From the NCBI GenBank assembly GCA_017619975.1, contig JAFZRH010000014.1, forward strand, positions 1 to 55,781: a DNA stretch of 55,781 bases, given 5' to 3'. Below the pieces are notes generated by a model. The model was given only the letters and a program-made list of their open reading frames with translations, searched no databases and was not told where the DNA came from. Source of the DNA: Lachnospiraceae bacterium. Its GTDB lineage: Bacteria > Bacillota > Clostridia > Lachnospirales > Lachnospiraceae. This document shows positions 3,541 through 35,361 of this stretch, one piece after another; the first letter of the stretch is position 1, and each line of letters begins with the position of its first letter. A program made the position numbers and the translations under genes.

Positions 3541-3655
3541 GCCTCGCTGCCTCGAATCATCTGTCTCACCCCGCTTCGGCGGCCTTCCGGAATAGAACAG
3601 TCATAGTCAGGTCGCCTCAAGGGGGATTCGACAGATGATTCGGGCGCGCTCGGCC
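3541..3655. repeat. family A long hairpin, copy 1
   Basis: The left end GCCTCGCTGCCTCG and right end CGGGCGCGCTCGGC enclose a 13-bp perfect stem (CGAATCATCTGTC at 3553-3565 with its complement at 3630-3642). A central stem GGCGGCC/GGTCGCC with one G-U pair lies inside. The ends and centre match the copies at 29663 and 35248, while the middle stem does not. Confidence 0.85.
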
Positions 3656-3673
3656 CAAAAATCATCCAGTAAC

Positions 3674-4789
3674 TTACCGCGTCACAAAATTCACCGGCAG
3701 GATCAGGTAGATGTAGGTGCCCTCCTCGTCGCGGATGAAGCCCGGCGCGCGGGAATTTGTCAGATACAGCGTCACCGTCTCGTCATTGATGGCCCGGAGC
3801 GCATCGATCAGGAAGCGAGGATTGAAGCCGATCATCAGGTTGCTGCCTTCCTTCTCCACTTCGATCTCTTCTTTCATGGATCCGATGATGCTCGTCAGGC
3901 TCAAGGTCACGCTGCCGTTCTTGATATTCAGAATCAGCGGCTTCTTGTCGGACTCGCGCACCAGGATCACCGAGCGCTCGATGCAGTTTAACAGGCGCTT
4001 GCGGTTGAAGACCAGCTTCGTTTCGTAATTTGACGTGATCATCTGATCGATGCGGAAGTATTCCCCTTCGATCAGGCGGCTCACCAGCGTCGTTCCTTCG
4101 AAAGCGAACAAAATATGGTTCTTTCCGATATAGATGTTCACCATTTTGGAAGCATCTCCGGTGATGATGCGGCTTAAGTCATTTAACGTCTTGCCCGGTA
4201 CGATGACCGAGACCGGATCGATGCTTTCGCGGTTGTTCATCACGCTGTAGCGGATCGCGATGCGGTGTCCGTCCAGCGCGGCGACGCGGAGCGTATTGCC
4301 TTTGATTTCAAAAAGCTCGCCGGTCATCATCTTGTTGTTTTCATTCGCCGCGATCGAGAAGATGGTCTGCTCAATGATTTCCTTTAAAGTAAGCTGCGAG
4401 ATCACCACCGGAATTCCCTTGCTGATGGAAGGCATGCCGATGAAATCGTCCCCGTTCTTGCCGGACATCGTAAAGTAGGCGTCCGCGGAAGTGATTTCCA
4501 CCTGGAGATTGCTGTCTACTTTAATATGGATCTCATCTTCCGGAAGATTCCGGATGATATCGGAAAAAAGTTTGGCATCCAGAGCGACGGTTCCTTCCGA
4601 AATGATCGTTCCGCCGGTCTCGGAACGGATCGCCATCTCCATGTCGTTGGCCATGACGGTCACGATCCCGTTTTTCGCTTCCAGCAGCAGACATTCCAGA
4701 ATAGGAAGGGACGTCCTTGTCGGCACAGCTTTCATGCTTGTATTGATGGCCTGCATCAGTTTCGCCTTGGAAAAGAAAAGGTCTAACAT
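3674..4789 (-). CDS. dnaN: DNA polymerase III beta subunit (sliding clamp)
   Basis: Ring-shaped clamp that tethers the replicative polymerase to DNA. The 371 residues match the family. The N-terminus has LMQAINTSMKAVPTRTSLPILE, domains two and three follow with RLIEGEYFRID, and the end YIYLILPVNFVTR resembles the usual PVR C-terminus. The ATG has an AAGGAGTT ribosome binding site and lies 26-33 bases from a good promoter (4822-4850). It is separated from dnaA by 222 bases, and so may be transcribed both with dnaA and alone. Confidence 0.97.
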   Translation of the reverse strand: MLDLFFSKAKLMQAINTSMKAVPTRTSLPILECLLLEAKNGIVTVMANDMEMAIRSETGGTIISEGTVALDAKLFSDIIRNLPEDEIHIKVDSNLQVEITSADAYFTMSGKNGDDFIGMPSISKGIPVVISQLTLKEIIEQTIFSIAANENNKMMTGELFEIKGNTLRVAALDGHRIAIRYSVMNNRESIDPVSVIVPGKTLNDLSRIITGDASKMVNIYIGKNHILFAFEGTTLVSRLIEGEYFRIDQMITSNYETKLVFNRKRLLNCIERSVILVRESDKKPLILNIKNGSVTLSLTSIIGSMKEEIEVEKEGSNLMIGFNPRFLIDALRAINDETVTLYLTNSRAPGFIRDEEGTYIYLILPVNFVTR

Positions 4790-4821
4790 AACAACTCCTT
4801 CTTTATTGTGACATAGTATTT

Positions 4822-4850
4822 ATTATAATAGGGGCTGTAGAATTGTTGAA
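4822..4850 (-). promoter_or_regulatory. dnaN promoter
   Basis: On the minus strand, TTCAAC (4850-4845), a 17-base spacer and TATAAT (4827-4822) fit a housekeeping sigma-A promoter. The dnaN start codon lies about 30 bases downstream. Confidence 0.7.
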
Positions 4851-4987
4851 AGCCCGGTTTTATTCAGCAGTCATCCCGTTTTCCGCCCTGTATAAGTCCG
4901 TTTAAAGGCCCGGGAAGGAGCGGGGAAAAGCGTGCTCTTGTCCACCCGGCGGAAAGTCCTGAAAAATGACGGCCCGCCGTTCCCATT

Positions 4988-4996
4988 TTATCCACG
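4988..4996 (+). other. DnaA box (TTATCCACG) downstream of dnaA
   Basis: This matches the TTATCCACA consensus at eight of nine positions and lies in the dnaA-dnaN gap. A second weaker match on the other strand (5004-5012) touches the dnaA stop. Boxes on both sides of dnaA would resemble the bipartite origin known in Bacillus. Confidence 0.55.
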
Positions 4997-5011
4997 GGGA
5001 AGCGGTGGATA

Positions 5012-6349
5012 TCAGGGTTTGATCTTTTTGCGGAGGACTTCCATCACATTCCGCAGGGATTCGTCCGTCTGCAGCTGCTCTTCGATCTTCCGCTTTCCGT
5101 GCAGGACCGTGGTATGATCCCTTCCGCCGAGGAACTGTCCGATATTTTTCAGCGGCGTCTGCGTCAGTTCCTTGGCCAGATACATGACGATCTGACGCGG
5201 GAAGACGATCTCGGCATCTTTTTTCTTGCCGATGATATCGGACGTCCGGATGCCGAAGTGATCGGATACGACCTCCAGAATATAAGGAAGCGTGATCTCG
5301 CGCGGCGCGTCCGGATTGATCTGGTCCCGAAGCGCTTCTTCCGCCAGTTCCAGGGTGATGGGCCGGACCGTTACGCGGGACAGGGCCACAATCTTCGTTA
5401 AGGCACCTTCCAGCTCCCGGATATTGGATTTGATGTTGCTGGCGATGTACTTGATGACTTCATTGTCGATGTTGTAGCCGGCAATCTCCTCTTTTTTCCG
5501 CAGGATCGCCATGCGGGTCTCAAAATCCGGCAGGCCGATATCGGCGGTCAGACCCTGTTCGAAGCGGGTACGGAGCCGCTCTTCCAGATCGTCGATCTCC
5601 TTCGGAACGCGGTCGCTGGAGATCACAATCTGTTTATTGGCGCCGTAGAGAGCGTTGAAGGTATGGAAAAGCTCTTCCTGCATACCGAACTTTTTGGAAA
5701 TAAACTGAATATCGTCGATCAGCAGCACGTCCACAAAGCGGTATTTTTCCCGGAAATCCGTCATGGTCGTATTGTTTTTGTTGGCCAGGGCGTCCACGTA
5801 GTCGTTCAGAAACTTTTCGCAGGTCACATAAAGAACACGGGCCTTCGGATTTTCTTTCAGTACAAAATGAGCGATGGACTGCATCAGATGCGTTTTGCCG
5901 AGTCCGGCGCCGCCGTAGATATACAGAGGATTGTAGATCTCGCCAGGCGCTTCCGCGACGGCCAGGGAGGCTGCGTGCGCCAGTTTGTTGTTCTGACCGA
6001 CCACGAAAGAATCGAAGGTATAGCGGGAATTTAAATTGGCGATGCTGAAATCGTGACGGGATGCGGGAGCATCCTCCCGGTTTTCATCACGGGTCGTGAC
6101 GAATTTCAGCGTGCAGTCCGTGCCGGTGATCTCTTCGATCGCGTAATGCAGAAAAAATCCGTAGCGGTTTTCCACGAAGGAAGCGGCAAAGCTGTCGCCG
6201 GGAAAATAGACGGTCAGAACATTTTTATTGCTCAAAGAAACAGGAATCAGAGGCAGGATCCAGGTCCGGTAACTGACATCCGTCAGACCTCTGTCTTCTC
6301 TGACTTTTTCTAAAATATCATCCCATTTGCTTTTAATATCAGTAAACAT
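5012..6349 (-). CDS. dnaA: chromosomal replication initiator DnaA
   Basis: AAA+ ATPase that binds DnaA boxes and opens the origin. The N-terminal DnaB-contact domain (DVSYRTWILPLIPVSL) is followed by Walker A GGAGLGKTHLMQ, Walker B VLLIDDIQFI, and the domain IV helix-turn-helix with RDHTTVLHGKRKI. I start at the ATG at 6349, which has GAGGT five bases upstream; an in-frame GTG at 6361 would overlap that site. This gives 445 residues, the usual length. It faces away from oriC and heads the minus-strand replication genes. Confidence 0.97.
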   Translation of the reverse strand: MFTDIKSKWDDILEKVREDRGLTDVSYRTWILPLIPVSLSNKNVLTVYFPGDSFAASFVENRYGFFLHYAIEEITGTDCTLKFVTTRDENREDAPASRHDFSIANLNSRYTFDSFVVGQNNKLAHAASLAVAEAPGEIYNPLYIYGGAGLGKTHLMQSIAHFVLKENPKARVLYVTCEKFLNDYVDALANKNNTTMTDFREKYRFVDVLLIDDIQFISKKFGMQEELFHTFNALYGANKQIVISSDRVPKEIDDLEERLRTRFEQGLTADIGLPDFETRMAILRKKEEIAGYNIDNEVIKYIASNIKSNIRELEGALTKIVALSRVTVRPITLELAEEALRDQINPDAPREITLPYILEVVSDHFGIRTSDIIGKKKDAEIVFPRQIVMYLAKELTQTPLKNIGQFLGGRDHTTVLHGKRKIEEQLQTDESLRNVMEVLRKKIKP

Positions 6350-6394
6350 AGCATACCTCACCGTATAAGGGCAAACTCCGACTTATACAGGTAT

Positions 6395-6423
6395 AATATA
6401 GCAAAAAGCCGCTCAAAATTCAA
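6395..6423 (-). promoter_or_regulatory. dnaA promoter
   Basis: TTGAAT (6423-6418), a 17-base spacer and TATATT (6400-6395) on the minus strand give a plausible sigma-A promoter 45 bases upstream of the dnaA start. It lies at the edge of the DnaA-box region, so control by DnaA is likely but not shown. Confidence 0.65.
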
Positions 6424-6730
6424 GAAGGGAGGTGGGAAAAATCAATAATCGGAACGAAAATGTGGATGCATTTTACCGGGTTTTGCACAATACGGAAAGC
6501 TTATACACATACATTTTTTAAACAGTCCACAGGAAAGAAAATTAAAGGCCGTGAAAAATGCCGCCATTACAGGAAAATTTGAAAATTATCCACCGAATGC
6601 ACATTTTTTGAGACAGACGCTTTGTGTATAAAAAAGAGACGGTGATATCCACAAATCATGCACATTTCATGCCCTTTTTGGGGATATTGACTTTTTCCGT
6701 ACACGTTTCGGCCGCCAGGAAAAAAAGTGC
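6424..6730. other. replication origin region (oriC)
   Basis: This is the divergent gap between dnaA and rpmH, locally AT-rich in an otherwise GC-rich window. DnaA-box matches are TTATACACA at 6501-6509 (+), TTATCCACC at 6586-6594 (+), TTATACACA at 6623-6631 (-) and ATATCCACA at 6645-6653 (+), with a weak match at 6461-6469 (-). Coding strands flip here: replication genes leave to the left and rpmH onward to the right, as expected for an origin. The unwinding element was not placed exactly; T-rich stretches near 6511-6520 and 6604-6610 are candidates. Confidence 0.88.
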
Positions 6731-6759
6731 TTGACGGACAGGAAACTTTTCCTTATAAT
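6731..6759 (+). promoter_or_regulatory. rpmH promoter
   Basis: TTGACG (6731-6736), a 17-base spacer and TATAAT (6754-6759) form a near-consensus sigma-A promoter. A GAGGAGGT ribosome binding site and the rpmH start follow within 40 bases. Confidence 0.85.
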
Positions 6760-6797
6760 ACCTACTGCGTTTTATTTAAACGAGGAGGTATGTTGCC

Positions 6798-6932
6798 ATG
6801 AAAATGACATTTCAGCCCAAGAGAGTCTCTGATAAAAGAGTCCATGGTTTCCGGGCAAGAATGAAAACGGCCAGCGGCAGAAAAGTGTTATCCGCCCGCA
6901 GAGCAAAAGGCAGAAAAGCTATTTCGTTTTAG
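6798..6932 (+). CDS. rpmH: 50S ribosomal protein L34
   Basis: A 44-residue, strongly basic protein of the large ribosomal subunit. It reads [18 protein letters not shown], followed by [20 protein letters not shown] and RKAISF, matching the highly conserved L34 family over its whole length. GAGGAGGT lies eight bases before the ATG and a strong promoter lies at 6731-6759. It is the first gene of the plus-strand cluster leaving oriC and is followed after 30 bases by rnpA, the order found in nearly all bacteria. Confidence 0.97.
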
Positions 6933-6962
6933 GCCGCGCTGAGTGGTCTATTTTTTACGAAT

Positions 6963-7325
6963 ATGGTCACTTTAACGCCAATGGAATCGCTGAAGAAAAC
7001 AGCGCAGTTTGCCGAAGTCTATGAAAAGGGAAAGGCTTTCGGCACAAAAACCCTGGTCCTGTATGTTTTGAATTCGGAAGGGGACCGGGAGGAAGGCCGG
7101 TTAGGAATATCGGTCAGCAAAAAGGTCGGGGGCAGCGTGGTCAGACACCGCATCCGCCGCCTGATCAGGGAATGCTTCCGCCTGCATAAATCGGAATGGG
7201 CAGCAAGGGATTACGTTGTCGTTGCCCGAAAGGAAGCCGCCGGGAAGTCATACGCGGAGCTGGAAGCAGCGCTTTTGCTTCTCGGAAAAAAATCGAACTC
7301 GTTTGGGAAGGGCGGGAAGCCGTGA
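6963..7325 (+). CDS. rnpA: ribonuclease P protein component
   Basis: Protein cofactor of RNase P, which trims the 5' ends of tRNA precursors. The family signature [13 protein letters not shown] is present, with [14 protein letters not shown] just before it and [10 protein letters not shown] after it. At 120 residues the length is normal. The start is uncertain: the ATG at 6963 lacks a clear ribosome binding site, and an in-frame ATG at 6981 ([14 protein letters not shown]) gives an N-terminus more like other family members. Translation may be coupled to rpmH. Its stop overlaps the yidD start. Confidence 0.95.
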
Positions 7326-7555
7326 AACGTATCCTGATGTCTCTTGTCCGATTCTATCAGAAAAGGATCTCGCCCTTAAAACCCTCCGGAACCTGTAAAT
7401 TTATTCCCACCTGTTCTCAGTACGCACTGGAGGCGCTGGAAAGACACGGCGCGCTGAAAGGGAGTATTCTGGCAATCTGGAGAGTATTACGCTGCAATCC
7501 TTTCTCGGAAGGGGGATATGATCCCGTCCCCGAAGTCTGGCCGGGCAGGAAATAA
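7322..7555 (+). CDS. yidD: membrane protein insertion efficiency factor YidD
   Basis: A small protein of 77 residues with the family core [20 protein letters not shown], then [17 protein letters not shown] and [14 protein letters not shown], including the conserved cysteines. It is thought to help YidC insert membrane proteins. The start is a GTG whose last bases overlap the rnpA stop (GTGA), giving [15 protein letters not shown]; the reading frame extends further upstream but only inside rnpA. An ATG at 7337 is the alternative start. Confidence 0.93.
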
Positions 7556-7570
7556 CAGCTGGAGGAAAAA

Positions 7571-8662
7571 ATGTACTATTTATTACTGAGTGCAGCAGAT
7601 ACAGCCGCCAAATCCACGAAATTCTTCTATGAAGACTGGATTATCATAAAGCCGTTTATCTGGCTGTTCAGTCAATGCATGAACGGTATCATGTTCGTGC
7701 TGGACAAGGTCGGAATCTACAACATTGCTCTTTGTATCGTTCTGTTTACCATTCTGACGAAGATGCTGCTGCTGCCGCTCACCGTCAAGCAGCAGAAATC
7801 CATGCGGATCCAGACGATCATGAATCCGGAAATCCAGGCGCTGCAGAAGAAATACGCCGGCAAAACGGATACGCTCTCCCGTCAGAAAATGATGGAGGAA
7901 CAGCAGGCGATCCAGCAGAAATACGGCGTATCCATGTTCGGCGGCTGTCTGCCGACCCTGATCCAGATGCCGATCCTCTTTGCTCTGTATCCGGTCATTT
8001 ACCGGATGGAGGAATACGTCAAATATCTGGGAACGCTGGAAAGCAAGCTGAGCAGCGAACAGTATACCCGCATGTGGCAGCTGTTCGATCTGAATTTAAA
8101 GAATTCGCCGAAGTCGGCGGAAGGCTTCCCCTTTGCCTGGCCGGTGCTGCTGCCGATTCTGGTAGCGGCGGCCCAGTTCCTGCAGACCAAGCTGATGACG
8201 TCCCGTCAGCAGAACCAGCACCAGAGCGACAACCCCATGGGCAATTCCATGAAGGTGATGAACATCGTCATGCCGCTCATGATCGGTTTTATGGCGATCT
8301 CCTTCCCGGCATTCTTAGGTCTGTACTGGCTGGTCCAGTCCCTGGTCATGCTGGTTCAGCAGATTCTGATCAACAAGTCTCTGGACAAGAAGACCACGGA
8401 AGAATTAATTAAGGAAAACATCGAAAAAGCGAATAAAAAGCGTGCCCGCAGAGGGCAGCCGCCTATCTCTGACAAGGCCAGCATCTCGACCCGGAACCTG
8501 GACCGTCTGAATGCCCGTGCCGAGGATACGCAGTTTCAGGAAGAAAAAGAAGCAAAGATGAAAGCGGCTACGGAATACTATCAGAGCCGTACGGCCGCGC
8601 CGGGCTCTCTGGCAGCCAAGGCAAATATGGTCCGGGATTACAACGAAAGAACCAAAAAATAA
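7571..8662 (+). CDS. yidC: membrane protein insertase YidC/Oxa1 family
   Basis: Inserts proteins into the cytoplasmic membrane, alone or with SecYEG. The 363 residues carry the YidC core: a first core membrane segment (IALCIVLFTILTKMLLLPLT), a cytoplasmic coiled hairpin (residues about 75-120), then FGGCLPTLIQMPILFALYPVIY, a segment near 190-210 and a last one (IGFMAISFPAFLGLYWLVQS). There is no lipobox, unlike Bacillus SpoIIIJ. The tail of about 85 residues is Lys/Arg-rich, as expected for ribosome contact. It has a GGAGG ribosome binding site and is 15 bases after yidD. Confidence 0.96.
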   Translation: MYYLLLSAADTAAKSTKFFYEDWIIIKPFIWLFSQCMNGIMFVLDKVGIYNIALCIVLFTILTKMLLLPLTVKQQKSMRIQTIMNPEIQALQKKYAGKTDTLSRQKMMEEQQAIQQKYGVSMFGGCLPTLIQMPILFALYPVIYRMEEYVKYLGTLESKLSSEQYTRMWQLFDLNLKNSPKSAEGFPFAWPVLLPILVAAAQFLQTKLMTSRQQNQHQSDNPMGNSMKVMNIVMPLMIGFMAISFPAFLGLYWLVQSLVMLVQQILINKSLDKKTTEELIKENIEKANKKRARRGQPPISDKASISTRNLDRLNARAEDTQFQEEKEAKMKAATEYYQSRTAAPGSLAAKANMVRDYNERTKK

Positions 8663-8674
8663 AGAAGGAAAAGC

Positions 8675-9343
8675 ATGAAACAGGAAATCTTTAACGGAAA
8701 AACGGTAGATGACGCCATCAATAAAGCGATCGTTGCGTTTGAAGTGACCAGCGATCAGCTCGGATATGAAGTAATCGACAAAGGATCCAACGGAATTCTC
8801 GGGATTGGAGCCCGTCCGGCGACGATCAAGGCCTGGGTGCTGATCCAGAGCATGGAAGACGTGGCAAAAGAATTTCTGACAAATGTCTTTGAAACGATGA
8901 ATCTGGAAGTAGAGATCGTTTCTGAATATAACGAAGAAGAACGGACTTTATCGCTGGATCTGCAGGGCGAAAACATGGGCATCCTGATCGGCAAGCGCGG
9001 CCAGACCCTGGATTCGCTGCAGTATCTGACCTCTCTGGTCGTCAATAAAGGCAGCGAGGATTATATCCGCGTAAAACTGGACATCGAAAACTACCGCGAA
9101 AGACGCGAGGATTCGCTCGAAAATCTGGCCCGCAGCTGTGCCGCCAAGGTCAAAAAGACCCGCCGCCCGGTAGTCCTGGAGCCTATGAACCCTTATGAGC
9201 GCCGCATTATTCACTCCTGCCTGCAGAACGACCGGAACGTGGTCACCTCCAGCGAAGGCGAGGAACCGTACCGGCACGTGGTTATCTCCTTAAAGCGTTA
9301 CAGCAAGGACAAGAAGAGCGAAAAGACGCCGGAGGAAGAGTAA
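8675..9343 (+). CDS. khpB: RNA-binding protein KhpB (Jag)
   Basis: An RNA-binding protein of 222 residues. The N-terminal Jag domain (VDDAINKAIVAFEV, with GILGIGARPATIKAW) is followed by a KH domain containing MGILIGKRGQTLDSLQYL near residues 105-122 and an R3H domain with PYERRIIHSCLQ (R-x3-H). In other Firmicutes it pairs with KhpA and affects cell division and envelope control. It lies 12 bases after yidC and ends the operon before a strong terminator. Confidence 0.95.
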   Translation: MKQEIFNGKTVDDAINKAIVAFEVTSDQLGYEVIDKGSNGILGIGARPATIKAWVLIQSMEDVAKEFLTNVFETMNLEVEIVSEYNEEERTLSLDLQGENMGILIGKRGQTLDSLQYLTSLVVNKGSEDYIRVKLDIENYRERREDSLENLARSCAAKVKKTRRPVVLEPMNPYERRIIHSCLQNDRNVVTSSEGEEPYRHVVISLKRYSKDKKSEKTPEEE

Positions 9344-9353
9344 AAAGCATGGG

Positions 9354-9379
9354 GGCGGGGCCGAAGGCCCCGCCTTTTT
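9354..9379 (+). terminator. intrinsic terminator after khpB
   Basis: GGCGGGGCC-GAA-GGCCCCGCC followed by TTTTT is a nine-base-pair perfect GC stem with a three-base loop. It separates the rpmH-khpB group from mnmE, which begins 12 bases later. Confidence 0.9.
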
Positions 9380-9391
9380 GAAGGAGTTTCT

Positions 9392-10759
9392 ATGGAATTC
9401 GATACCATTGCCGCCATTTCGTCAGGGCTGGTGCCCGGCGGGATCGGAATCGTCAGGGTCAGCGGACCGCAGGCCGTGAAGATCTGTGAGCCGCTCGTGA
9501 GGATCCGGGCCGTTTCCTTAAGCGGGGCAAAGGCCAATCATTTATACTACGGGAAGATCCTGGACGGGGAAACGGTGCTGGACGAGGCGCTGATCGCCGT
9601 TTTAAAGGCGCCGCACAGCTATACGGCGGAGGACACCGTGGAACTGCAGTGTCACGGCGGTCCTTTTGTGCTGGGGCGGGTGCTGGAGACGGTCCTAAAG
9701 GCAGGCGCCAGACTGGCGGAACCCGGTGAGTTTTCGAAACGGGCTTTTCTGAACGGCCGGCTGGACTTAAGCGAAGCCGAGGCCGTGATGGATCTTATCT
9801 CCTCTCACACCGAACTGGCCCGGGAAACTGCCGTAAAACAGCTGCAGGGCGCACATTCCGAAAAGATCCGCGCCATGCGGGCCGCTCTCCTGGAAAAAAC
9901 GGCCTATCTCGAAGCGGCACTGGACGATCCGGAACATTATGACCTGACGGGCTATGCCGAAGGCCTTCGGCCTGTCCTGGAGACGCTTCGAAAGGATATC
10001 CGAACGCTGCTGGCCTCGGCCGACAACGGAAGGCTTGCGGTCGAAGGCATCAAAACCGCCATTATCGGCCGGCCGAACGTCGGGAAATCCTCCTTTTTGA
10101 ACCGTCTGCTTGGCTTTGAGCGGGCTATCGTGACGCAGATCCCGGGCACGACGCGGGATACGATCGAGGAGAGCTTCCGCTGCGGGGATCTGGTGTTGCG
10201 TCTTTCGGATACGGCCGGCATCCGGGAAAGCACGGATGCGGTGGAACGGATCGGAATTGAGCGGGCCCGGGAGACGGTCCGGGAGGCGGATCTGGTTCTG
10301 CTGCTGACAGACGGTTCGCAGGCTTTTTCGGAGGAAGATGAGGCGCTTTTCGTCCTTTGCGAAGGGAAAAAGACGATCGTTCTGCTGAATAAGGCGGATC
10401 TGGGGCTGGCGGAAACGCCGGAAGCGGTCTCTTCCCGACGGAATCTGCCCTGTTTTGCGGTCTCGGCTTTGAACGGGGACGGGATCGAAGCGGTTCTTGA
10501 AAAAATACGGGTCCTCTTCTGTCTTGCCGAGATACGTCAGCAGCCGCTGCTCGTTACGAATCTGCGGCACAAGGAGCTTTTGCGGCAGGCCGAAGCGTCT
10601 CTCGGCTGCGCGCTGGATACGCTGGATCATCAGGCGCCGGAGGACTTTTTAACCATCGACCTGATGGACGCCTACCGCGCGCTCGGGCAGATCCTGGGCG
10701 AAGAAGTGGAGGAAGACCTGATCAACGAGATTTTCGGAAAATTCTGCATGGGGAAATAG
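9392..10759 (+). CDS. mnmE: tRNA modification GTPase MnmE
   Basis: With MnmG it makes the (carboxymethyl)aminomethyl group on U34 of certain tRNAs. The N-terminal folate-binding domain starts with MEFDTIAAISSGLVPGGIGI. The G domain has GRPNVGKSSFLN (near residue 227), IPGTTRDTIEE, DTAGIRE and NKAD. The C-terminus ends FGKFCMGK, which keeps the conserved cysteine. At 455 residues it is full length. AAGGAG precedes the ATG. It is followed by mnmG after six bases. Confidence 0.97.
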   Translation: MEFDTIAAISSGLVPGGIGIVRVSGPQAVKICEPLVRIRAVSLSGAKANHLYYGKILDGETVLDEALIAVLKAPHSYTAEDTVELQCHGGPFVLGRVLETVLKAGARLAEPGEFSKRAFLNGRLDLSEAEAVMDLISSHTELARETAVKQLQGAHSEKIRAMRAALLEKTAYLEAALDDPEHYDLTGYAEGLRPVLETLRKDIRTLLASADNGRLAVEGIKTAIIGRPNVGKSSFLNRLLGFERAIVTQIPGTTRDTIEESFRCGDLVLRLSDTAGIRESTDAVERIGIERARETVREADLVLLLTDGSQAFSEEDEALFVLCEGKKTIVLLNKADLGLAETPEAVSSRRNLPCFAVSALNGDGIEAVLEKIRVLFCLAEIRQQPLLVTNLRHKELLRQAEASLGCALDTLDHQAPEDFLTIDLMDAYRALGQILGEEVEEDLINEIFGKFCMGK

Positions 10760-10765
10760 AAGCCG

Positions 10766-12673: not shown

Positions 12674-12702
12674 CAAAAAGAGACCGGTGAGTCGGTGAGG
12701 CA

Positions 12703-12759
12703 GGTGAGCCGGGGAAACGTGAGCCAGGGGAACGGTTCTTCCCGGGCTCACCTTTTTTT
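12703..12759 (+). terminator. terminator after mnmG
   Basis: GGTGAGCC at 12703-12710 pairs with GGCTCACC at 12745-12752, followed by seven T. The long interior is partly self-complementary. It lies between the two parS sites and just upstream of the rsmG promoter. Confidence 0.75.
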
Positions 12760-12768
12760 GTCCGCGTC

Positions 12769-12797: not shown

Positions 12798-12802
12798 TCA
12801 GA

Positions 12803-12818: not shown

Positions 12819-12835
12819 CCGGGAGGTTTACGGAT

Positions 12836-18008: not shown

Positions 18009-18263
18009 TTGCCCTCCCCCTGACGAGGGGGAAGGATGTCAGCCGAAGGCTGACAGGGCGGGGGCGACTTGCAGAACACTTTGCCTTCCCCCGGACGCGG
18101 GGGAAGGTGTCACGGCAAAGCCGTGACGGATGAGAGCGACATGCAGACCACCTCACCCTCCCCCTGACGAGGGGGAGGGATGTCAGCCGACGGCTGACAG
18201 GGCGGGGGAGACTTGCAGAACACTTCGCCCTCCCCCTGACGCGGGGGACGGCAAGGGCGACTC
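18009..18263. repeat. four tandem family B double-hairpin units
   Basis: Units start near 18009, 18081, 18152 and 18223. The first three have hairpin one (CCCTCCCCC-like with complement) and hairpin two: TGTCAGCC-GAA-GGCTGACA, GTCACGGC-AAA-GCCGTGAC and TGTCAGCC-GAC-GGCTGACA. The fourth is cut short, without hairpin two. GCAGAACACTT joins units one to two and three to four. The array fills the 298-base gap before the response regulator and ends 20 bases before its ribosome binding site. No gene is seen within it. Confidence 0.88.
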
Positions 18264-26853: not shown

Positions 26854-26898
26854 AAGACAGCTTAAGAAAGAGGAGCCGAAGTCCCTCTTAAATGGAAG

Positions 26899-26945
26899 GC
26901 GGCTGCCATTGCTTCAAACGAAGCGAGACAGCCGCTTACATTTTT
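26899..26945 (+). terminator. terminator after YfcC-type gene
   Basis: GCGGCTG at 26899-26905 pairs with CAGCCGC at 26929-26935, with an inner stem GCTTC/GAAGC, then TTACATTTTT. It lies between convergent genes. Confidence 0.7.
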
Positions 26946-27000
26946 GTTTCGGACGGAGGGAAGCCGCGGGTTTTCACAAAAAGGGGACAGGGAAATGAGA

Positions 27001-27906: not shown

Positions 27907-28031
27907 CGTTTTTCCTTTCTTTCGGCGGTTTTGCCGCCTTCGGAGGATCCCGTCCCCCGTACCCGTTCAGTATAGCACAGATTGGTCCGGCGAGAAAAGG
28001 CTTTCCCGTTTTTATTCTTTCCGGCCGGGAC

Positions 28032-28061
28032 TTGAAAAAAGAAGGTTATTTATGATAAAAT
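28032..28061 (+). promoter_or_regulatory. udk-degV promoter
   Basis: TTGAAA (28032-28037), an 18-base spacer and TAAAAT (28056-28061) lie 45 bases before the udk start. Confidence 0.55.
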
Positions 28062-28106
28062 AACAATTCCGGACAGGTTTTGTGTTTACGGCAAAGGAGG
28101 TCTGTC

Positions 28107-28736
28107 ATGAATGATATTCTGATCGTGGGAATAGCCGGCGGATCCGGCAGCGGAAAAACGACCCTGACCAACAACCTGATTTCACGTTTCGGCGACCAGG
28201 TGACCGTGGTTCATCACGATAATTACTACCGCTCTCATCACGATCTGACCTACGAGGAAAGAACGCGGCTGAACTACGACTGTCCGGAAGCTTTCGAAAA
28301 CGAGCTGATGATCGAGCAGCTGGGCCTGTTAAAAGAAGGCCGCAGCGTAGAATGTCCCATCTACGATTTTACCGTTCATGACCGGAAGGCCGAAACGATC
28401 ACGATCGAACCGAAGCCGGTGATTCTGGTGGAGGGCATCCTGATCTTCACGGAGCCCGCGCTTCTGGAGCAGATGGATATCAAGATCTTTGTGGACACGG
28501 ATGCGGATATCCGGCTGGCCAGACGGATCCGGCGGGACGTGGAGGACCGCGGCCGCAGCATGCAGAGCGTACTGGACCAGTGGTGCACGACCGTCAAGCC
28601 CATGTATGAGATGTACGTGGAGCCGACGAAGAAAAAAGCGGATATCATCGTTCCGGAGGGCGGCCGGAATCAGGTCGCGCTGGACATGCTGTTCGGCCGT
28701 CTGGAGCGGCACTTGAAGGAAATCAGAAAAGCTTAA
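28107..28736 (+). CDS. udk: uridine kinase
   Basis: Phosphorylates uridine and cytidine with ATP or GTP in pyrimidine salvage. The P-loop GIAGGSGSGKTTL lies at residues 8-20, followed by VVHHDNYYR, LNYDCPEAFENEL, YDFTVHDRK, VILVEGILIF and DTDADIRLARRIRRDVEDRG, all standard for the family. I start at the ATG at 28107 with GGAGGT upstream, giving 209 residues, the usual length. The upstream extension of the frame is not conserved. degV follows after 30 bases. Confidence 0.96.
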   Translation: MNDILIVGIAGGSGSGKTTLTNNLISRFGDQVTVVHHDNYYRSHHDLTYEERTRLNYDCPEAFENELMIEQLGLLKEGRSVECPIYDFTVHDRKAETITIEPKPVILVEGILIFTEPALLEQMDIKIFVDTDADIRLARRIRRDVEDRGRSMQSVLDQWCTTVKPMYEMYVEPTKKKADIIVPEGGRNQVALDMLFGRLERHLKEIRKA

Positions 28737-28766
28737 AACGGAATCATGGCAGGAAAGGAGAAATGT

Positions 28767-29651
28767 ATGGCTGACTATATCATCGCAACTTCATCCACCT
28801 CGGATCTTCCGAGAACCTGGCTGGAGGCGCATCAGGTCCCGTTCATTTCCTACAGCTATACCGTGGGAGATACGGTTTATGAGGACGACTGCCGGGAAGA
28901 AAGCCGCGCGGCCGTCTATGCGGGCATGCGGTCGGGAGACCTGCTGAAGACCTCCATGATCAACGCCTTTGCCTACCATGAGTTCTTTGAGAGCCTGCTG
29001 AAGAGCGGAAAAGACGTGATCTTCCTGGATATGTCCGAAAAAATGTCTGCTTCCTTCCAGAACTGTGCCGAAGCGGCAAAACAGATCCGGATGGAGTTCC
29101 CCGGACAGCAGCTTTACGTCATGGATACCCGCTGTATTTCCGGCGGTCTGGGGCTGCTGGTCTGTGAAATGGTGAAGCGGCAGGAGGCCGGCGCATCGTT
29201 TGATGAGGTCATCGCCTGGGGGGAAGCGCATAAACTGAAAATCGCCCACCGCTTTACGGTGGACGACCTGAAATATCTGAAGATGGGCGGCCGCGTCTCC
29301 AATTCCGCCGCCCTGATCGGTCAGCTCCTTCAGATCAAGCCGGTGCTCTATGTGCCGGACCGCGGGACGCTGGACGTGGTGAAAAAGGTGCGGGGCCGCA
29401 AAAATGCTTTAAAAGCGATCCGAGACGGGATCTTAAGCGACCTGTCGAAGATCGATCCGGCCGGAACCGAGTTCCATATCCTGCATGCGGACTGCCGGGC
29501 AGATGCCGAGTGGGTCCGCGACGAAGTCAAGAAAGCCTATCCGCAGATCGGAGAAGTTACGGTCACCCAGCTGGGCGTGGTCATCGGGGCGCACTGCGGT
29601 CCGGGCCTGCTGACCGTCTTCTACCTCTGCGGCGGAAGGCAGCCGGAATAA
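28767..29651 (+). CDS. DegV-family fatty-acid-binding protein
   Basis: A 294-residue protein of the DegV family, which binds a fatty acid for the FakA/FakB kinase system. The N-terminal domain has IIATSSTSDLPRTWLE and a region with LKTSMINAFAYHEFF; the second part has DTRCISGGLGLLVCEMVK, HRFTVDDLKYLKMGGRVS and the C-terminal LGVVIGAHCGPGLLTVFYL. I start at 28767 because AAAGGAG lies just before it; the frame begins 21 bases earlier. No fakA is in this window. A large hairpin with a T-run ends the operon. Confidence 0.93.
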   Translation: MADYIIATSSTSDLPRTWLEAHQVPFISYSYTVGDTVYEDDCREESRAAVYAGMRSGDLLKTSMINAFAYHEFFESLLKSGKDVIFLDMSEKMSASFQNCAEAAKQIRMEFPGQQLYVMDTRCISGGLGLLVCEMVKRQEAGASFDEVIAWGEAHKLKIAHRFTVDDLKYLKMGGRVSNSAALIGQLLQIKPVLYVPDRGTLDVVKKVRGRKNALKAIRDGILSDLSKIDPAGTEFHILHADCRADAEWVRDEVKKAYPQIGEVTVTQLGVVIGAHCGPGLLTVFYLCGGRQPE

Positions 29652-29662
29652 ACGAAAAATCA

Positions 29663-29827
29663 GAGCGCAGGAGCCGGCGCTTCATACCTCGCCGCCACGA
29701 CACGAACTTTTCTCAGCCCGCTTCGGAGACCTTCCAAAATAAATATTTACAGACAGGTCTCCTCAAGGGGCGTTCGAAAAGTTGTGATCGGGCTGGCGCG
29801 GCAAGCGCCGGCTCCTGCGCTCTTTTT
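29663..29827 (+). terminator. family A hairpin copy 2, forming the degV terminator
   Basis: An outer perfect 20-bp stem (29663-29682 with 29803-29822) is followed by TTTTT. Inside lies a family A unit: CTCGCCGCCACGA, a variable stem GAACTTTTC/GAAAAGTT, the centre GGAGACCT and AGGTCTCC, and right-end-like CGGGCTGGCGCG. So this copy of the repeat also acts as, or is wrapped in, a terminator. Confidence 0.85.
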
Positions 29828-29835
29828 GCGTCTTT

Positions 29836-30495
29836 TTACCGCAGACTGATCTTTGCGTTCGGGCAATGATCCTTCAGATAGCCGAAAACGAAATCAAAGT
29901 CGCTGTCTTTCACGTAGACCTGATTGCGCTTTAAAAGCGTGTGGACCTTGATCAGGTGTTTGCGGCGGATCCCCTTCAGATTCCGTACCTTGTCAAAGCG
30001 GCAGGTCAGACTGCCGCCGCCCATCTGCATCATGCCGATCCCGGTCGCCGTTGCATTGCCGGCTGCGGCGCCGACCAGCATGGTCAGGATGTTCAGGGCT
30101 TCCGCCTTTTCGGTCTTGATCTGGCTGTGTGAGACAGACCGGTCGTCCATTTCAAACAAAACGGTGTATTTCCCGTTGTTGGCCCGGGTCACGATCCAGT
30201 AGGCAGGAAGAGACAGGACGAAAAGGATGCCGAAAACGATGCCGAAAGTGATGCCGGCGTTCTGCAGGCGTTCCAGGAACGAACCGTCGGAAATGATTAC
30301 CGTCAGCAGGAACGGAAGGATCGCGGCGATCAGCAGCACGCGCCAGACTTCAAAGAGCAGGAAAAAGCTCTTTCGCATCGGAAGTTCGTAGATCCAGCGA
30401 TAGGTTCCGTCTCCGCAGAGCAGAACGTCATCGGAACGGGCGGCATCGGGCTGACTGACAGCTCCGGCCTGTTCGGGGTTTTCTAAGTAAGGCAT
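29836..30495 (-). CDS. membrane protein of unknown function
   Basis: A 219-residue protein with two membrane segments (VWRVLLIAAILPFLLTVII, about 52-70, and TFGIVFGILFVLSLPAYWIV, about 83-102). A cytoplasmic part follows with ANNGKYTVLFEMDDRSVSHS and a C-terminal RRKHLIKVHTLLKRNQVYVK, which resembles a bacterial PH-like fold. I do not recognise a function. AAGGAG lies six bases before the start. It ends against the degV terminator and is upstream of nothing obvious in the same direction. Confidence 0.7.
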   Translation of the reverse strand: MPYLENPEQAGAVSQPDAARSDDVLLCGDGTYRWIYELPMRKSFFLLFEVWRVLLIAAILPFLLTVIISDGSFLERLQNAGITFGIVFGILFVLSLPAYWIVTRANNGKYTVLFEMDDRSVSHSQIKTEKAEALNILTMLVGAAAGNATATGIGMMQMGGGSLTCRFDKVRNLKGIRRKHLIKVHTLLKRNQVYVKDSDFDFVFGYLKDHCPNAKISLR

Positions 30496-30591
30496 GGGTT
30501 CTCCTTGTGAAATCTTGCGGGGCCGCCGGCCGCGGCAGGCATCTGTTGTTTTGAATATAAAGGGGAGAACCCTGCCTTGTCAAGCGGTTTC

Positions 30592-31269
30592 TCAGTGCCT
30601 GTCCGTGCGGATTGCCTTCTCCCGGCCGCCTCTTTTTTTATAGTCTGCTTCGATCTCTTCCTTCCAGTTTTCGGCCAGCGGCGCGCCGCAGCGGACGCTG
30701 CAGACCGCCTCGGAAACGACTTTGTAATTGAGGGCGGTGCCTTCCCGGTCGCTGTTGTAGCGGACGGCGCGGTCAGCCCGGATCCCGAAATGCGCAGCGG
30801 TGCTCACGGCATCGATATTGGCGCCGAGGAAAAGGAACTCCCAGCCGTATTCTTCCTGCTGGCGCTTCACCATCTTCCGGACTTCGTCGGCGCCGTAGCG
30901 GCGGCTGGCGTTTTCCATGCCGTCGGTGGTGATCACGAAGAGCGTCTTGGCGGGACGGTCTTCTTCGCGGGCGTATTTGTGGACGTTTGCGATGTGCTTT
31001 ACCGCGCCGCCGATCGCGTCCAGCAGAGCGGTGCAGCCGCGGACGAAATACTGCTTTTCCGTCATGGGTTCGACCTTTTTTAAGTCCACGCGGTCGTAAA
31101 TGACTTCGCTTTCGTGGTCGAAAAGGACCACGGAGACGAACGCGTCGCCCGCTTCTTTTTTCTGCTTTTCGATCAGGGCGTTGAAGCCGCCGATGGTGTC
31201 GCTTTCCAGTCCGGCCATGGAGCCGCTGCGGTCTAAGATAAATACGAGTTCGGTCAGGTTCTTGTTCAT
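30592..31269 (-). CDS. von Willebrand factor A domain protein
   Basis: A 225-residue protein that is essentially one VWA domain. The metal site DRSGSMAG lies near residue 13, the conserved Thr in GCTALLDAIG near 86 and Asp in TTDGMEN near 117, so the ion-binding site looks complete. No signal peptide is seen, so it is probably cytoplasmic. AGGAGG precedes the start. Similar solo VWA genes occur in Firmicutes, sometimes near stress or phosphoprotein genes; its partner is unknown. It is divergent from the helicase gene. Confidence 0.88.
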   Translation of the reverse strand: MNKNLTELVFILDRSGSMAGLESDTIGGFNALIEKQKKEAGDAFVSVVLFDHESEVIYDRVDLKKVEPMTEKQYFVRGCTALLDAIGGAVKHIANVHKYAREEDRPAKTLFVITTDGMENASRRYGADEVRKMVKRQQEEYGWEFLFLGANIDAVSTAAHFGIRADRAVRYNSDREGTALNYKVVSEAVCSVRCGAPLAENWKEEIEADYKKRGGREKAIRTDRH

Positions 31270-31512
31270 GATGTGATCCTCCTGCTTTTCATCTTTTGTG
31301 CCTCTGCTTCATGCCCGGAAGATTTTGCGGGGAGCAGGCGATTTTTGAAAGAGTCCTGCCGCTTTCAGGTCTGCTTTTCCGGACCTTTCGCCGGATGCGG
31401 CGCGGCATGTTTTTTGTTTTCTGTCTGAAGGATACCTGTTTTGAGGACAGAAAAGGTCAACCGTCGATTGACATTTTTGACTTTCCCCGCGCTCTGTGAT
31501 AGCATAGGCAGC

Positions 31513-34083
31513 ATGAGAGACTATCATCTGATCCGGGGACTGAACCCCAAAAAGACGCCGCTTTTGCCGCTGGCGCAGTACTGCGCCGCAGCAGAACTCG
31601 CGGATGAAGAAATGAAGAAAGCTTTACCGAAGGCGGGGGAAGCGCTGGGCGTTTTTCTCGCTTACCGGCTGTTGTCTCTGAGTGAAGGCGGATCGGGCGG
31701 GGAAGAGGAGATTTTTTCCGAAACACCGCTTTCTTCCCGTACGCTTTCCGAGCTGATCTATACGGGTCTTGCGGACGCGGACGGCAGGCTGCGGATGGAG
31801 CCGCTGCACGGCGAAGCTGAAAACTTCATAAGAGAAGCGCTGAAGAAGCTGCTTCGGACGCTCGCGGAAAGCGCTTTTGCCGCGGGCTGCCGGGCCGGCT
31901 TCAACCGCCCCGGAGAACTGGCGGATCATCTGCGGGATGATATCGGCATTTCCCTGTCGGCACCGCTGGAGGTGCTGCTGCCCGCGGAGTGCTGGCAGTG
32001 GACGGTCGGGAAGATCCGGGAAAAGTACGGCGCGGAAGCCGAGCTGATCCGGGCGGAGCGGAAGCGTTTCCGCCGGGACTATGACGCGGCAAAAGCGAAG
32101 AAAGAAAAAGACCTGACGGAGCGCGCGGCTGCGCTGCCGTATGAAGGAGAACCCGGAAAATATTATTCACAGGAAAACAACCGGGAATTCCAGCAGTTGA
32201 AGGAAAAATACAGCGCGGAGGAGATCGGGCTTCTGCTTTTCGGCGGGAAGATCCGCCTTTCTTCGGCCTTCCGGAAGGATTACTATATCAGCCGGGATCC
32301 GCAGCTGGACAAAAAGCTCTATCACACGGAACTGATCCCCGACTGGCACCCGGAAAAAGGGGCGGCGGCCTTCAGAACACTGGCGAAAGCGTACGAGGAG
32401 AGCATCCGCGCGGAGCGCGAGGAGGCTGCCGCGGAGGAAGGCGGCCGCAGGCAGGAGAGGAACCGGAAGAGAAGAAGAAACGCGGCAGTTCGGACCGCCA
32501 TCGTCAATTCGATCCCGGACAACTACATCGATCTTTTCCCGCTGGCGCGGGCTATGAAACGGCACTTCGTGCTGCACATCGGGCCGACCAATTCCGGCAA
32601 GACACACGATGCCATTGAAGCCTTAAAACAGGCGGAGAACGGGATCTATCTGGGGCCGCTGAGGCTGCTCGCGTTCGAGCAGTATGAAGCCCTGAACGAG
32701 GCGGGCTGCCCCTGCTCGCTCGTGACCGGGGAGGAGCGGATCGAGGATCCCTGGGCCTGCTATCAGGCTTCGACCATCGAAATGCTGAACACCCGGACGG
32801 AATATGCGCTGGCCGTGATCGACGAGGCGCAGATGATCGGGGATCCGGACCGGGGCGGCGCCTGGACGAGCGCGATCCTGGGCGTGTGCGCGAAAGAGGT
32901 GCACGTCTGCGCGGCGCCGATCGCGAGAAAGCTGCTGATCCGCCTGATCCGGGACTGCGGCGACAGCTATACGGTCGTGGAACACCGGCGCATGACGCCC
33001 TTAAAGCTCGAAAAAGACCCGTTTACGCTGGAGGAGGACGTTCAGCCGGGCGATGCGCTGATCGTGTTTTCGAAAAAAAGCGTGCATGCGGTCGGGGCGT
33101 ACCTGCAGCGGCACGGCTTCCGCTGCAGCGTGATCTACGGCGCGCTGCCCTACGACGTCAGACGGGAGCAGGCGAGACTCTTCGCCCGGGGCGAAAACGA
33201 AGTGGTGGTCGCGACGGACGCCATCGGCATGGGTATGAACCTGCCCATCCGGCGGGTGATCTTTCTGGAGCAGGAAAAATACGACGGCATCTCGGTGCGG
33301 CCGCTTCTGACAGAGGAGATCAAGCAGATCGCGGGCCGGGCCGGCCGCTACGGGATCTATCCCGAAGGGCTGGTCAATTCCACGGAGCCGAAAAGCCCGA
33401 TCCGGGCCGGTCTGGAAGGGAAAAGCGAAACGGTCCGGGAGGCCGTGATCGCCTTCCCGGAATCGCTGCTCGGCGTGGACGCCCCGCTGTCGGAGATCAT
33501 CGAACGCTGGGGCCAGCTGGAGATCAAGCCGGGCTACACAAGGGCGGATCCGGGCCGGATGCTGAAGCTCTGCCGGATGATCGAGCCCCTGTCGGAAGAC
33601 AAGAGCTTTCTCTACGACTGCATCAGCATGACCTTTGATGAAGAAGAAACGGAGCTGCTTTCCGTCTGGCGCGTCATGTGCGCGAAGGAAGCCGCGGGAG
33701 AAGTCTACGACGTGGAAAACGCCCTCCCGGACGGGAAGAAAATCGAAGATTCCGACAACATGAACGAGCTCGAAGAAGCCTTCCGGCTCTGCGACCTTCT
33801 GTTCGGCTACTGTGAGAAATTCGATCATACCGAATGGCGCGAAGAGATCATGCACAGAAAAAACAGGATCTCCGCGAAAATGACGGAGATCCTGGCGAGA
33901 CAGTCACTGCACGGCAGACGCTGCGCGGCCTGCGGGAAAGCGATGCCCTGGAACGTGCCCTACGGTCTGTGCGAGCGCTGCTATAAGCTCGGGCGGGGCC
34001 GGATGCTGAATCTTCCGGCGGACGCTACGCGACGGATCCGGTCTTCAAGGGGGGAAGACCGCAGTCAAAAAGGGCGATATTGA
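31513..34083 (+). CDS. SUV3-like DEAD/DEAH-type RNA helicase with C-terminal zinc motif
   Basis: An 856-residue superfamily 2 helicase. The N-terminal 330 residues are not recognised. Then come motif I IGPTNSGKTHDAIEAL (near 356), GIYLGPLRLLAFEQYEAL, motif II VIDEAQMIGD (near 436), a second RecA-like half with VIFSKKSVHAV, VVATDAIGMGMNLP and IKQIAGRAGRYG, and a C-terminal CAACGK...CERC zinc motif near 805. These match SUV3, the RNA helicase of the mitochondrial degradosome. The start is chosen at 31513; a longer frame begins with a TTG at 31441. The 3' end overlaps the convergent macro-domain gene by 59 bases. Confidence 0.85.
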   Translation: MRDYHLIRGLNPKKTPLLPLAQYCAAAELADEEMKKALPKAGEALGVFLAYRLLSLSEGGSGGEEEIFSETPLSSRTLSELIYTGLADADGRLRMEPLHGEAENFIREALKKLLRTLAESAFAAGCRAGFNRPGELADHLRDDIGISLSAPLEVLLPAECWQWTVGKIREKYGAEAELIRAERKRFRRDYDAAKAKKEKDLTERAAALPYEGEPGKYYSQENNREFQQLKEKYSAEEIGLLLFGGKIRLSSAFRKDYYISRDPQLDKKLYHTELIPDWHPEKGAAAFRTLAKAYEESIRAEREEAAAEEGGRRQERNRKRRRNAAVRTAIVNSIPDNYIDLFPLARAMKRHFVLHIGPTNSGKTHDAIEALKQAENGIYLGPLRLLAFEQYEALNEAGCPCSLVTGEERIEDPWACYQASTIEMLNTRTEYALAVIDEAQMIGDPDRGGAWTSAILGVCAKEVHVCAAPIARKLLIRLIRDCGDSYTVVEHRRMTPLKLEKDPFTLEEDVQPGDALIVFSKKSVHAVGAYLQRHGFRCSVIYGALPYDVRREQARLFARGENEVVVATDAIGMGMNLPIRRVIFLEQEKYDGISVRPLLTEEIKQIAGRAGRYGIYPEGLVNSTEPKSPIRAGLEGKSETVREAVIAFPESLLGVDAPLSEIIERWGQLEIKPGYTRADPGRMLKLCRMIEPLSEDKSFLYDCISMTFDEEETELLSVWRVMCAKEAAGEVYDVENALPDGKKIEDSDNMNELEEAFRLCDLLFGYCEKFDHTEWREEIMHRKNRISAKMTEILARQSLHGRRCAACGKAMPWNVPYGLCERCYKLGRGRMLNLPADATRRIRSSRGEDRSQKGRY

Positions 34084-35182
34084 TCTGCGGAATGCTGTAC
34101 TCCTTCCGCTCGATATAATACTGGACGACCAGATCCGCTTTGCTGGAACGGGTCAGCGCGTAGCCGGCCCGGTCCAGAAGGGTCTGCGTCTGGGCAAGAT
34201 CCAGCTCCAGCGCGAGCGCGAGCTGGATCGCCGTGCTCTTGCTGGGCTGATAGTTCTTGACGTTGATGATCTTGTTGAAGAGCTGGCGGCTGACCTGCGC
34301 CTTGTGATAGACGGCGGAATCCTTCAGCCCTTTTTCATCGATCAGGCTGATAAGACAGTCGGCGAAGCTCTGCTCCGTCAGCTGATTTAAGAAATCATCC
34401 AGAGACGCATGGGAAGAGACGGTCTGCGGCCGGGACGGCGGGGCAGCCGCCTTTTTTTTCGTCTTTGCCGCGGCCGGTTTCGCCGCGCTCATCGGAGCGG
34501 AACAAGAAGCTTCCGGCAGCGCAGGTTCCTGACAGGCGAAGGCAGCCTTCCGTTCTTCACTTACATAGAGCGGACGGTTCTGCTGCGGGCGCTGGGCCGC
34601 GCCGGCTTCCCGTCTTTCCGGCCGGGGAAAGGCATATTCTTTTTCGGTCTGCTCCCGGACGTAGTTTTCGTCAATGTAGCTTTTTAAGTCCGAAAACAGC
34701 GAGGAGGCGAGCGAAAAAGCCCTGCCGTTGAAGATCACCAGCGTGATCTGCATCTCGTGCGTCAGCAGGAAATCCGTAAAGGCCCCGATGGCGACGGACA
34801 GCGCCTGATCCATCGGAAAGCCGTAGCTGCCGGCGGCCATAAGGGGAAAGGCGACCGAGCGGCAGTGAAGGCTCGCGGCTTCCGCCAGCGCCGCATCGTA
34901 CGCCTTCCGCAGCAGCGGCAGTTCGTCGTGCGAGCCGTCCTGCCAGGCCGGGGAGACCGTGTGCAGAACGTATTTCGCCGGCAGATTGTAGGCCCGCGTG
35001 CTGCGGCAGCTTCCGACCGGAATCTCGCCGATCTTTTTCCTGGCTTCCAGCAGCTTCGGACCGGCCGCTTTGTGGATGGCTGCGTCCGTTCCGGCGCCGA
35101 CAACAGGCGCCGGGTTCGCGGTATTGACGACGGCATCCGCCGTCACTTTTGTAATATCGTTCCGGATGATCTCAAACGGCAT
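34025..35182 (-). CDS. macro-domain protein with C-terminal helical DNA/RNA-binding-like domain
   Basis: Residues 1-165 form a macro domain, which binds or removes ADP-ribose: IIRNDITKVTADAVVNTANP, GAGTDAAIHKAAG and PLMAAGSYGFPMDQA are conserved. A Pro/Ala/Lys-rich linker of about 90 residues follows. Residues 270-385 form an XRE-like helical domain, with QVSRQLFNKIINVKNYQPSK and IQLALALELDLAQTQTLLDR. This C-terminal domain also occurs alone in Firmicutes. I start at the ATG at 35182 with AGGAG six bases upstream. The role is unknown; reversal or sensing of ADP-ribosylation is a guess from the domain. Confidence 0.85.
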   Translation of the reverse strand: MPFEIIRNDITKVTADAVVNTANPAPVVGAGTDAAIHKAAGPKLLEARKKIGEIPVGSCRSTRAYNLPAKYVLHTVSPAWQDGSHDELPLLRKAYDAALAEAASLHCRSVAFPLMAAGSYGFPMDQALSVAIGAFTDFLLTHEMQITLVIFNGRAFSLASSLFSDLKSYIDENYVREQTEKEYAFPRPERREAGAAQRPQQNRPLYVSEERKAAFACQEPALPEASCSAPMSAAKPAAAKTKKKAAAPPSRPQTVSSHASLDDFLNQLTEQSFADCLISLIDEKGLKDSAVYHKAQVSRQLFNKIINVKNYQPSKSTAIQLALALELDLAQTQTLLDRAGYALTRSSKADLVVQYYIERKEYSIPQINIALFDCGLPPLKTGSVA

Positions 35183-35247
35183 AAACAACTCCTAAGTTTG
35201 CGGAATTATAATCAAAACCATATGACAATTCGCAGAAGGTTCTAATT

Positions 35248-35361
35248 GCCTCGCTGCCTCGACACAACTTTTTCAGCCCGGTTCGGAGACCTCCCGGATT
35301 ATCAGAAAGGTCAGGTCTCCTCAATGGGCTGAAAAAGTTTGTGTCGGGCGCGCTCGGCGAG
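35248..35361. repeat. family A long hairpin, copy 3
   Basis: Left end GCCTCGCTGCCTCG, then CGACACAACTTTTTCAGCCC (35260-35279) paired with 35326-35346 except for one bulge, a centre GGAGACCT/AGGTCTCC and right end CGGGCGCGCTCGGC. It lies between the macro gene start and the pepF stop. No gene is seen in the gap. Confidence 0.85.

Follow-up and report, generated by a model that had tools for sequence, protein, structure and literature searches.

Dispersed long hairpins with covarying stems in a Lachnospiraceae genus: candidate small mobile DNA elements

Three hairpin copies and their neighbourhood

The window, a stretch of 55,781 nt that makes up one contig of a Lachnospiraceae genome (here G000; 2.12 Mb in 82 contigs, 94% complete), carries the gene order gyrB-recF-dnaN-dnaA, a DnaA-box-like cluster at 6501-6653, a sign change in GC skew, and yidC-jag-mnmE-mnmG. 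Given the dnaA neighbourhood, the box cluster and the skew change, the replication origin probably lies at about 6361-7571. The first-pass annotation of this DNA had described three long hairpins that share a left end, a centre and a right end, with middle stems that differ between copies and are complementary within each; all of these features are borne out in all three copies (Table 1). The centre of copy 1 reads GGCGGCCT/AGGTCGCC, with one imperfect pair. Copy 2 is on the plus strand with its core at 29686-29802, and the span originally given, 29663-29827, also covers the arms of a terminator-like hairpin and its T-run. With copy 2 left out, these surrounding arms form a 20 bp hairpin with a 3-nt loop.

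The hairpin cores of the three copies measure 111-117 nt. Folded as single-stranded DNA they give z-scores of -5.1, -5.7 and -9.0, and none of the 200 shuffles of each folds as well. No Rfam family exceeds its gathering threshold in the window, the best match of copy 1 having E = 0.79 and 16.9 bits against the 95 needed. The truncated left half 5′ of copy 1 gives weak model matches at 3486-3527 (R1, E = 0.31; R2, E = 0.003). A composite of half-elements, the GTGTCATTCCGAGC... repeat and a full or chimeric element is found both at 3384-3654 of the window and on contig C36 at about 2908-3154, and looks as if it had been moved as one unit. Other hairpins are present as well: a second dispersed family (CCCTCCCCCTGACGAGGGGGAGGG with TGTCAGCCGAAGGCTGACA) occupies 18012-18251, 2002-2045 and 37191-37301 of the window, partly in tandem with 72-nt spacing, and a related shorter family (CGCGCCCGGACGAAAACTTT...CGAAAGTGTTGTCCGGCTCGCG) adjoins main-family copies at C65:6790-7059 and C10:3122-3199.

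Table 1. Hairpin elements of the window and the genes and hairpins next to them.
Feature	Position	Strand	Remarks
recF	2083..3210	-	TIGR00611; downstream of copy 1
Second truncated left half	3384..3426	+	followed by another repeat hairpin (GTGTCATTCCGAGC...) at about 3427-3453
Element left half, truncated	3486..3535	+	directly 5′ of copy 1
Copy 1, full hairpin element	3541..3654	+	between dnaN and recF; stem AATCATCTGTC / GACAGATGATT; 122.4 bits
dnaN	3674..4789	-	TIGR00663; stop codon 19 nt from copy 1
DegV-family gene	28746..29651	+	end 34 nt before copy 2
Terminator-like hairpin, left arm	29663..29682	+	around copy 2
Copy 2, full hairpin element	29686..29802	+	stem ACACGAACTTTTC / GAAAAGTTGTGA; 103 bits
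Terminator-like hairpin, right arm	29803..29822	+	after copy 2; T-run at 29823..29827
Convergent ORF	29836..30495	-	no family match; end 33 nt after copy 2
Macro-domain gene	34025..35188	-	downstream of copy 3
Copy 3, full hairpin element	35248..35358	+	stem ACACAACTTTTTCAGCCC / GGGCTGAAAAAGTTTGTGT; 114.6 bits
Oligoendopeptidase F gene	35382..37187	-	TIGR00181; stop codon 23 nt from copy 3

The main subtype is built around a conserved, partly unpaired outer motif, TCGCTGCCWCG facing CGGGCGCGCTC, in which T4 is unpaired in 19 of 19 aligned copies and T8 in 18 of 19. The outermost three base pairs vary and are mostly still paired (GCC/GGC, GCG/CGC, CGC/GCG, CTC/GAG, TGC/GCA, GTC/GAC, ACC/GGT). 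Inward of the motif the stem is paired but variable as far as a conserved CCC/GGG step; beyond this step a further paired stem again varies (GGCGACC, GGAGACC, GACGACC, GGCGGCC and others) and ends in a loop that is fairly conserved. The centre is missing from some copies, others have an additional arm pair, and in others the centre sits on outer arms with unique sequence. The part that varies least across the genus is ACGAAAACTTTTCTC facing TCGAAAAGTATTGT. The elements have conserved, inverted ends on both sides of a spacer that pairs, the layout of REPINs and REPs, and are single long imperfect palindromes in intergenic DNA, as are ERIC and MITE elements.

Distribution in the genus and position relative to genes

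Exact copies of the 12-mer CTCGCTGCCTCG number 25 in the G000 genome; allowing at most one mismatch raises this to 49, where the reversed control gives 16. A first covariance model, built from 19 copies, gave 66 matches at E ≤ 1. Eight of these were opposite-strand palindrome duplicates; with them we removed a remnant of 32 nt (E = 0.0136) and a match with E = 0.31. Two of the 56 matches kept, e24 and e53, overlap. The same model found 29 matches in the genome of a sister species (G121), one of them a reverse-strand duplicate, and zero to seven in each of the other 14 genomes of the genus. A second model, for shorter relatives, matched all 16 genus genomes. Outside the genus, neither the first model with stricter filters (0 of 119 genomes from other genera of the same family) nor the second (0 of 39 genomes of the family) found any match. 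The first-pass annotation had proposed such a search of this genome and its relatives, which indeed returned many copies, and neither of the outcomes it had named as counting against it, few copies elsewhere and unpaired stems, was seen. In a pattern search of named genomes 14 of the 16 matches were Lachnospiraceae assemblies, several of them from ruminants (RUG isolates are presumably of rumen origin), and the other two were Actinomadura and Trinickia; one strict pattern had no exact match in viral contigs. Searches of an open-licence library turned up no description of the hairpin family.

Most copies lie behind genes. Among the 51 copies of the G000 genome with genes called on both sides, 50 follow at least one gene; 37 are in tandem, 13 in convergent and one in a divergent setting, compared with 30, 6 and 7 in a baseline of 43 (divergent 1/51 versus 7/43, p = 0.02), which takes in overlapping stretches; genes were called throughout with a codon-usage script. 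The count covers 51 of 56 copies: for e09, e14, e16, e41 and e48 genes were not called on both sides or a gene was called across the copy. The median distance of tandem copies from the stop codon that precedes them is 44 nt. In the sister genome, where 21 of the 29 matches were examined and 17 counted, 13 copies are tandem, one is convergent and three are divergent, so a position behind a gene is no strict rule. Of 24 copies looked at in other species, the 21 that were counted are all tandem.

Within tandem settings one orientation of the element relative to transcription predominates: in the sister the ratio is 13:0, and in the G000 genome it is 27:10 (p = 0.008). The ratio is 9:12 in other species (n = 21; 12 copies with '++' signs and 9 with '--'), and the family as a whole therefore does not share this orientation. 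Copies of the TCGCTGCC type show 38:9 over three genome sets (p = 2.5e-5) and the remaining copies of other species 8:1 the opposite way, in a split that was made post hoc and partly by eye and includes some orthologous or neighbouring copies; within the G000 genome the difference between canonical copies (20:5) and non-canonical ones (7:5) is weak (p = 0.24). Replication strand as the cause of the bias is ruled against by copies 1 and 3, which lie on opposite sides of the origin and yet each stand behind their gene, and by copies on sister contigs C13 and C93, which follow their genes on opposite strands. On contig C41 of the G000 genome two opposite copies lie between genes of the same direction, an arrangement that fits neither a replication-strand nor a transcriptional explanation.

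Covariation, nesting and turnover

In an alignment of 19 copies made from sequence only, 93.0% of cells are paired, against 86.1 ± 0.6% after shuffling, and both sides change in 15 of 34 pairs against 6.9 ± 1.6, a value that none of 500 shuffles reached; sliding the partner by 1-3 columns lowers pairing to 34-51%. With 68 distinct copies aligned to the model, an alignment that leans towards structure, 94.1% of cells are paired versus 80.8% shuffled, and two-sided change affects 31 of 34 pairs versus 15.5, again above all 500 shuffles. The proposal of the first-pass annotation that structure is kept while sequence changes, with significant covariation, is thereby upheld in both alignments. Its remark that this is unusual for a simple mobile repeat finds no support, since REPINs have compensatory changes too.

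Selection on an RNA should tolerate G·U and not A·C. We compared the elements with the RNase P RNA of 14 genus genomes. Among 2101 cells of the 68 distinct copies the G·T to A·C ratio is 36:30, with 94 other mismatches; among 1428 cells of RNase P it is 156:4. When the RNase P count is restricted to cells that differ from the commonest pair (24:4), the contrast with the 36:30 of the elements has p = 0.005 under an RNase P structure chosen by RNAalifold, which favours G·U. Treating both with RNAalifold shrinks the contrast (p = 0.04): the 19-copy alignment then gives 26:8, or 10:8 for non-dominant pairs. In the inner stem of 34 canonical copies, counted over all but 8 of the 34 pair columns (the outer pairs and two with bulge-shifted register), 799 of 810 cells are Watson-Crick, 4 are G·T and 3 A·C. 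Between close copies, one-sided changes passed through G·T 17 times and through A·C 43 times, compared with 255 and 35 in RNase P.

Two-sided changes do not discriminate in this way. Over compared pairs of copies, which are not independent, the elements show 159 against 19 expected, with clustering of 20 against 6.7 and transitions equal to transversions; RNase P shows 731 against 120, 167 against 74.5 and a type ratio of 316:359. As RNase P has a similar excess, the excess cannot separate RNA from DNA, and we no longer take two-sided change as evidence that DNA was copied. According to one study (PMC8794818), template switching can also produce paired change in the absence of selection. The two-sided, clustered Watson-Crick changes of the elements resemble those described there; that work compares genes by descent and ours copies that are dispersed, and two-sided change by itself has no diagnostic value. 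On the wobble counts, plain RNA selection on pairing is disfavoured, and pairing is likely kept at the DNA level.

Copy 2 is one of several elements that lie within other hairpins. In 8 of the 48 copies tested the left flank pairs with the right one (p ≤ 0.01), where about 0.5 would be expected; the 48 are those other than e24, e40, e42, e43, e45, e46, e49 and e53, which have an edge inside a larger element or an overlapping or adjoining neighbour. Joined without the copy, seven of the eight flank pairs form compact hairpins with loops of 3-4 nt. T-runs follow the hairpins clearly at e12, e17, e19 and e51 and more weakly at e14, e50 and e52. Three near-identical 79-nt copies, e50-e52, sit in three unrelated hairpins.

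We searched the joined flanks of 12 copies in the sister genome; six sites were aligned in full, e07 was also read, and e12, e14, e21, e22 and e50 were left out. At three of the six the element is absent, with the genes less than 15 nt apart in one case; two others carry a plain terminator-like hairpin of other sequence and one an apparent element right end. At six further sites (e04, e06, e17, e31/e45, e37 and e07) both species have superfamily hairpins with different stems, and two orthologous pairs, e04-L188 and e17-L183, are in opposite orientation. Element sites turn over fast. Simple empty sites for copies 2 and 3 were rejected as the sister has other genes there, and no target duplication, TA included, was recognised at the sister sites, the flanks of which have diverged.

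What the hairpins may be

Our preferred reading, which we hold with somewhat better than even confidence, is a genus-specific family of small mobile elements that are non-autonomous, are of the same kind as REPINs and ERIC, and consist each of one long, imperfect DNA hairpin (about 70-180 nt). It is built on the observed dispersal, conserved motif, covariation, location, nesting and absence from some sister sites. The elements would move as a single-stranded or cruciform DNA hairpin through a putative enzyme acting in trans. Pairing at the DNA level would come from selection on the hairpin, from copying of one arm from the other by template switching or repair, or from both, and the bulges may be retained because they are recognised.

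No mobilising enzyme could be linked to the hairpins. A Y1 transposase has no match in the G000 genome, which is richest in copies; such transposases occur in 7 of the 16 genus genomes, with three matches in the sister, the second richest. Around ten Y1 loci we found no core-motif match, only scattered three-mismatch matches to the outer ends, and Y1 was therefore rejected as the driver despite the three matches in the sister. IS110 transposases are present in 2 of the 16 genomes, neither of them G000 or the sister. Each of the 16 has one strong reverse transcriptase match; that of the G000 genome (L249 1078-2316 on contig C3, 412 aa) matches the UG26 class along its length with 577.8 bits. 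The reverse transcriptase too was set aside as a mobiliser, with no link to the hairpins found. In the loci examined, from an assembly in 82 contigs, no parent element combining the same ends with a transposase was seen.

On this reading the family is a new one within a known kind of small mobile repeats; it fits none of the known families tested. REPINs, REP doublets that form hairpins in Pseudomonas and E. coli, have conserved inverted ends, a less conserved pairing middle, frequent compensatory changes, extragenic location and many copies, as set out in PMC3116915, and all of these recur here. The differences are that our elements have no GTAG-tagged REP ends (by eye) and no Y1/RAYT in the copy-richest genome, that copies lie in loops of other hairpins and that bulges run along the outer stem. 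We did not file the family as REPIN because the Y1 transposase and the tag that define such elements are both wanting; in the way it works the family looks REPIN-like. With ERIC/IRU, a 127-bp enterobacterial repeat which in Yersinia is transcribed with its neighbours, has effects that depend on orientation and has a proposed role in mRNA (PMC2229807), the elements share a single long hairpin and an intergenic position; our alignments have no TA ends, and we set the two apart by the description of ERIC, not by its sequence. GTAG/CGTC repeats, found in many phyla, are likewise palindromic, and their CGTC class apparently has no dedicated transposase; the words Firmicutes and Clostridi- are absent from the paper that describes them (PMC3733652). 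Here no unpaired terminal tetranucleotide tag, GTAG or CGTC, is seen by eye at the alignment ends.

The most serious competitor, which we regard as unlikely, is an RNA-level element: a transcribed hairpin behind the stop codon that protects, cleaves or separates parts of operon mRNA, its covariation reflecting RNA selection. It would make sense of the near-universal position of the G000 copies behind genes with so few divergent settings, of the tandem bias there and in the sister, and of copies that follow their genes across the origin and on contigs C13 and C93; two-sided changes are, relative to expectation, as frequent as in RNase P, and orientation is crucial for the mRNA effect of ERIC (PMC2229807). 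A model with DNA alone fails above all to explain the orientation bias. On the other side, the elements show no preference for G·T over A·C, unlike RNase P, tandem copies of other species are not biased in the same way, and 3 of the 17 sister copies lie between divergent genes. Moreover, none of 27 tandem copies has a U-run 3′ of the hairpin (at least 5 T in the first 8 nt after the element), so the element is no simple terminator. The same count, together with the lack by eye of attC end boxes, makes intrinsic terminators or integron attC-like sites barely credible, even though strong hairpins do stand behind stop codons and the bulges recall the unpaired bases that attC sites carry on one arm.

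That the elements are true REPINs moved by RAYT, the REP-associated Y1 transposase, is very unlikely: the common layout of conserved ends, variable paired middle, compensatory changes and extragenic position speaks for it, as do the Y1 matches in the genus and in the sister; against it, the genome with the most copies has no Y1 match, core motifs are missing around the ten Y1 loci and by eye the ends have no GTAG tag. Native 3′-end hairpins that are not mobile, and whose growth and convergence are due to template switching only, seem highly improbable. Sister sites that hold hairpins of different sequence, two of them in opposite orientation, are what such a process might leave; against it stand the near-identical 79-nt copies in three unrelated hairpins, and ends and loops common to dozens of places require dispersal.

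Compared with our preferred reading of a REPIN/ERIC-kind element, a more specific one, in which the single-stranded tips of other hairpins, including terminators, are the target of a mobile DNA hairpin that is moved by an undescribed kind of system and kept paired at the DNA level, is advanced tentatively and seems to us unlikely. Were it true, strong covariation here would be a DNA signature and not proof of RNA function. More generally, if pairing is kept in DNA, covariation alone would be poor evidence that repeated hairpins function as RNA. With dozens of paralogous hairpins in one genome and relatives across the genus, RNA and DNA causes of compensatory change can be weighed against each other through G·T versus A·C, with RNase P as a control, and the family raises the question of terminator loops as landing sites.

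Finally, repeats of a different sort are found within a gene of the window: the ORF at 44584-48354 (1256 aa, with choline-binding repeats) contains three 140-nt direct repeats at 46993-47495 with 91-96% identity.
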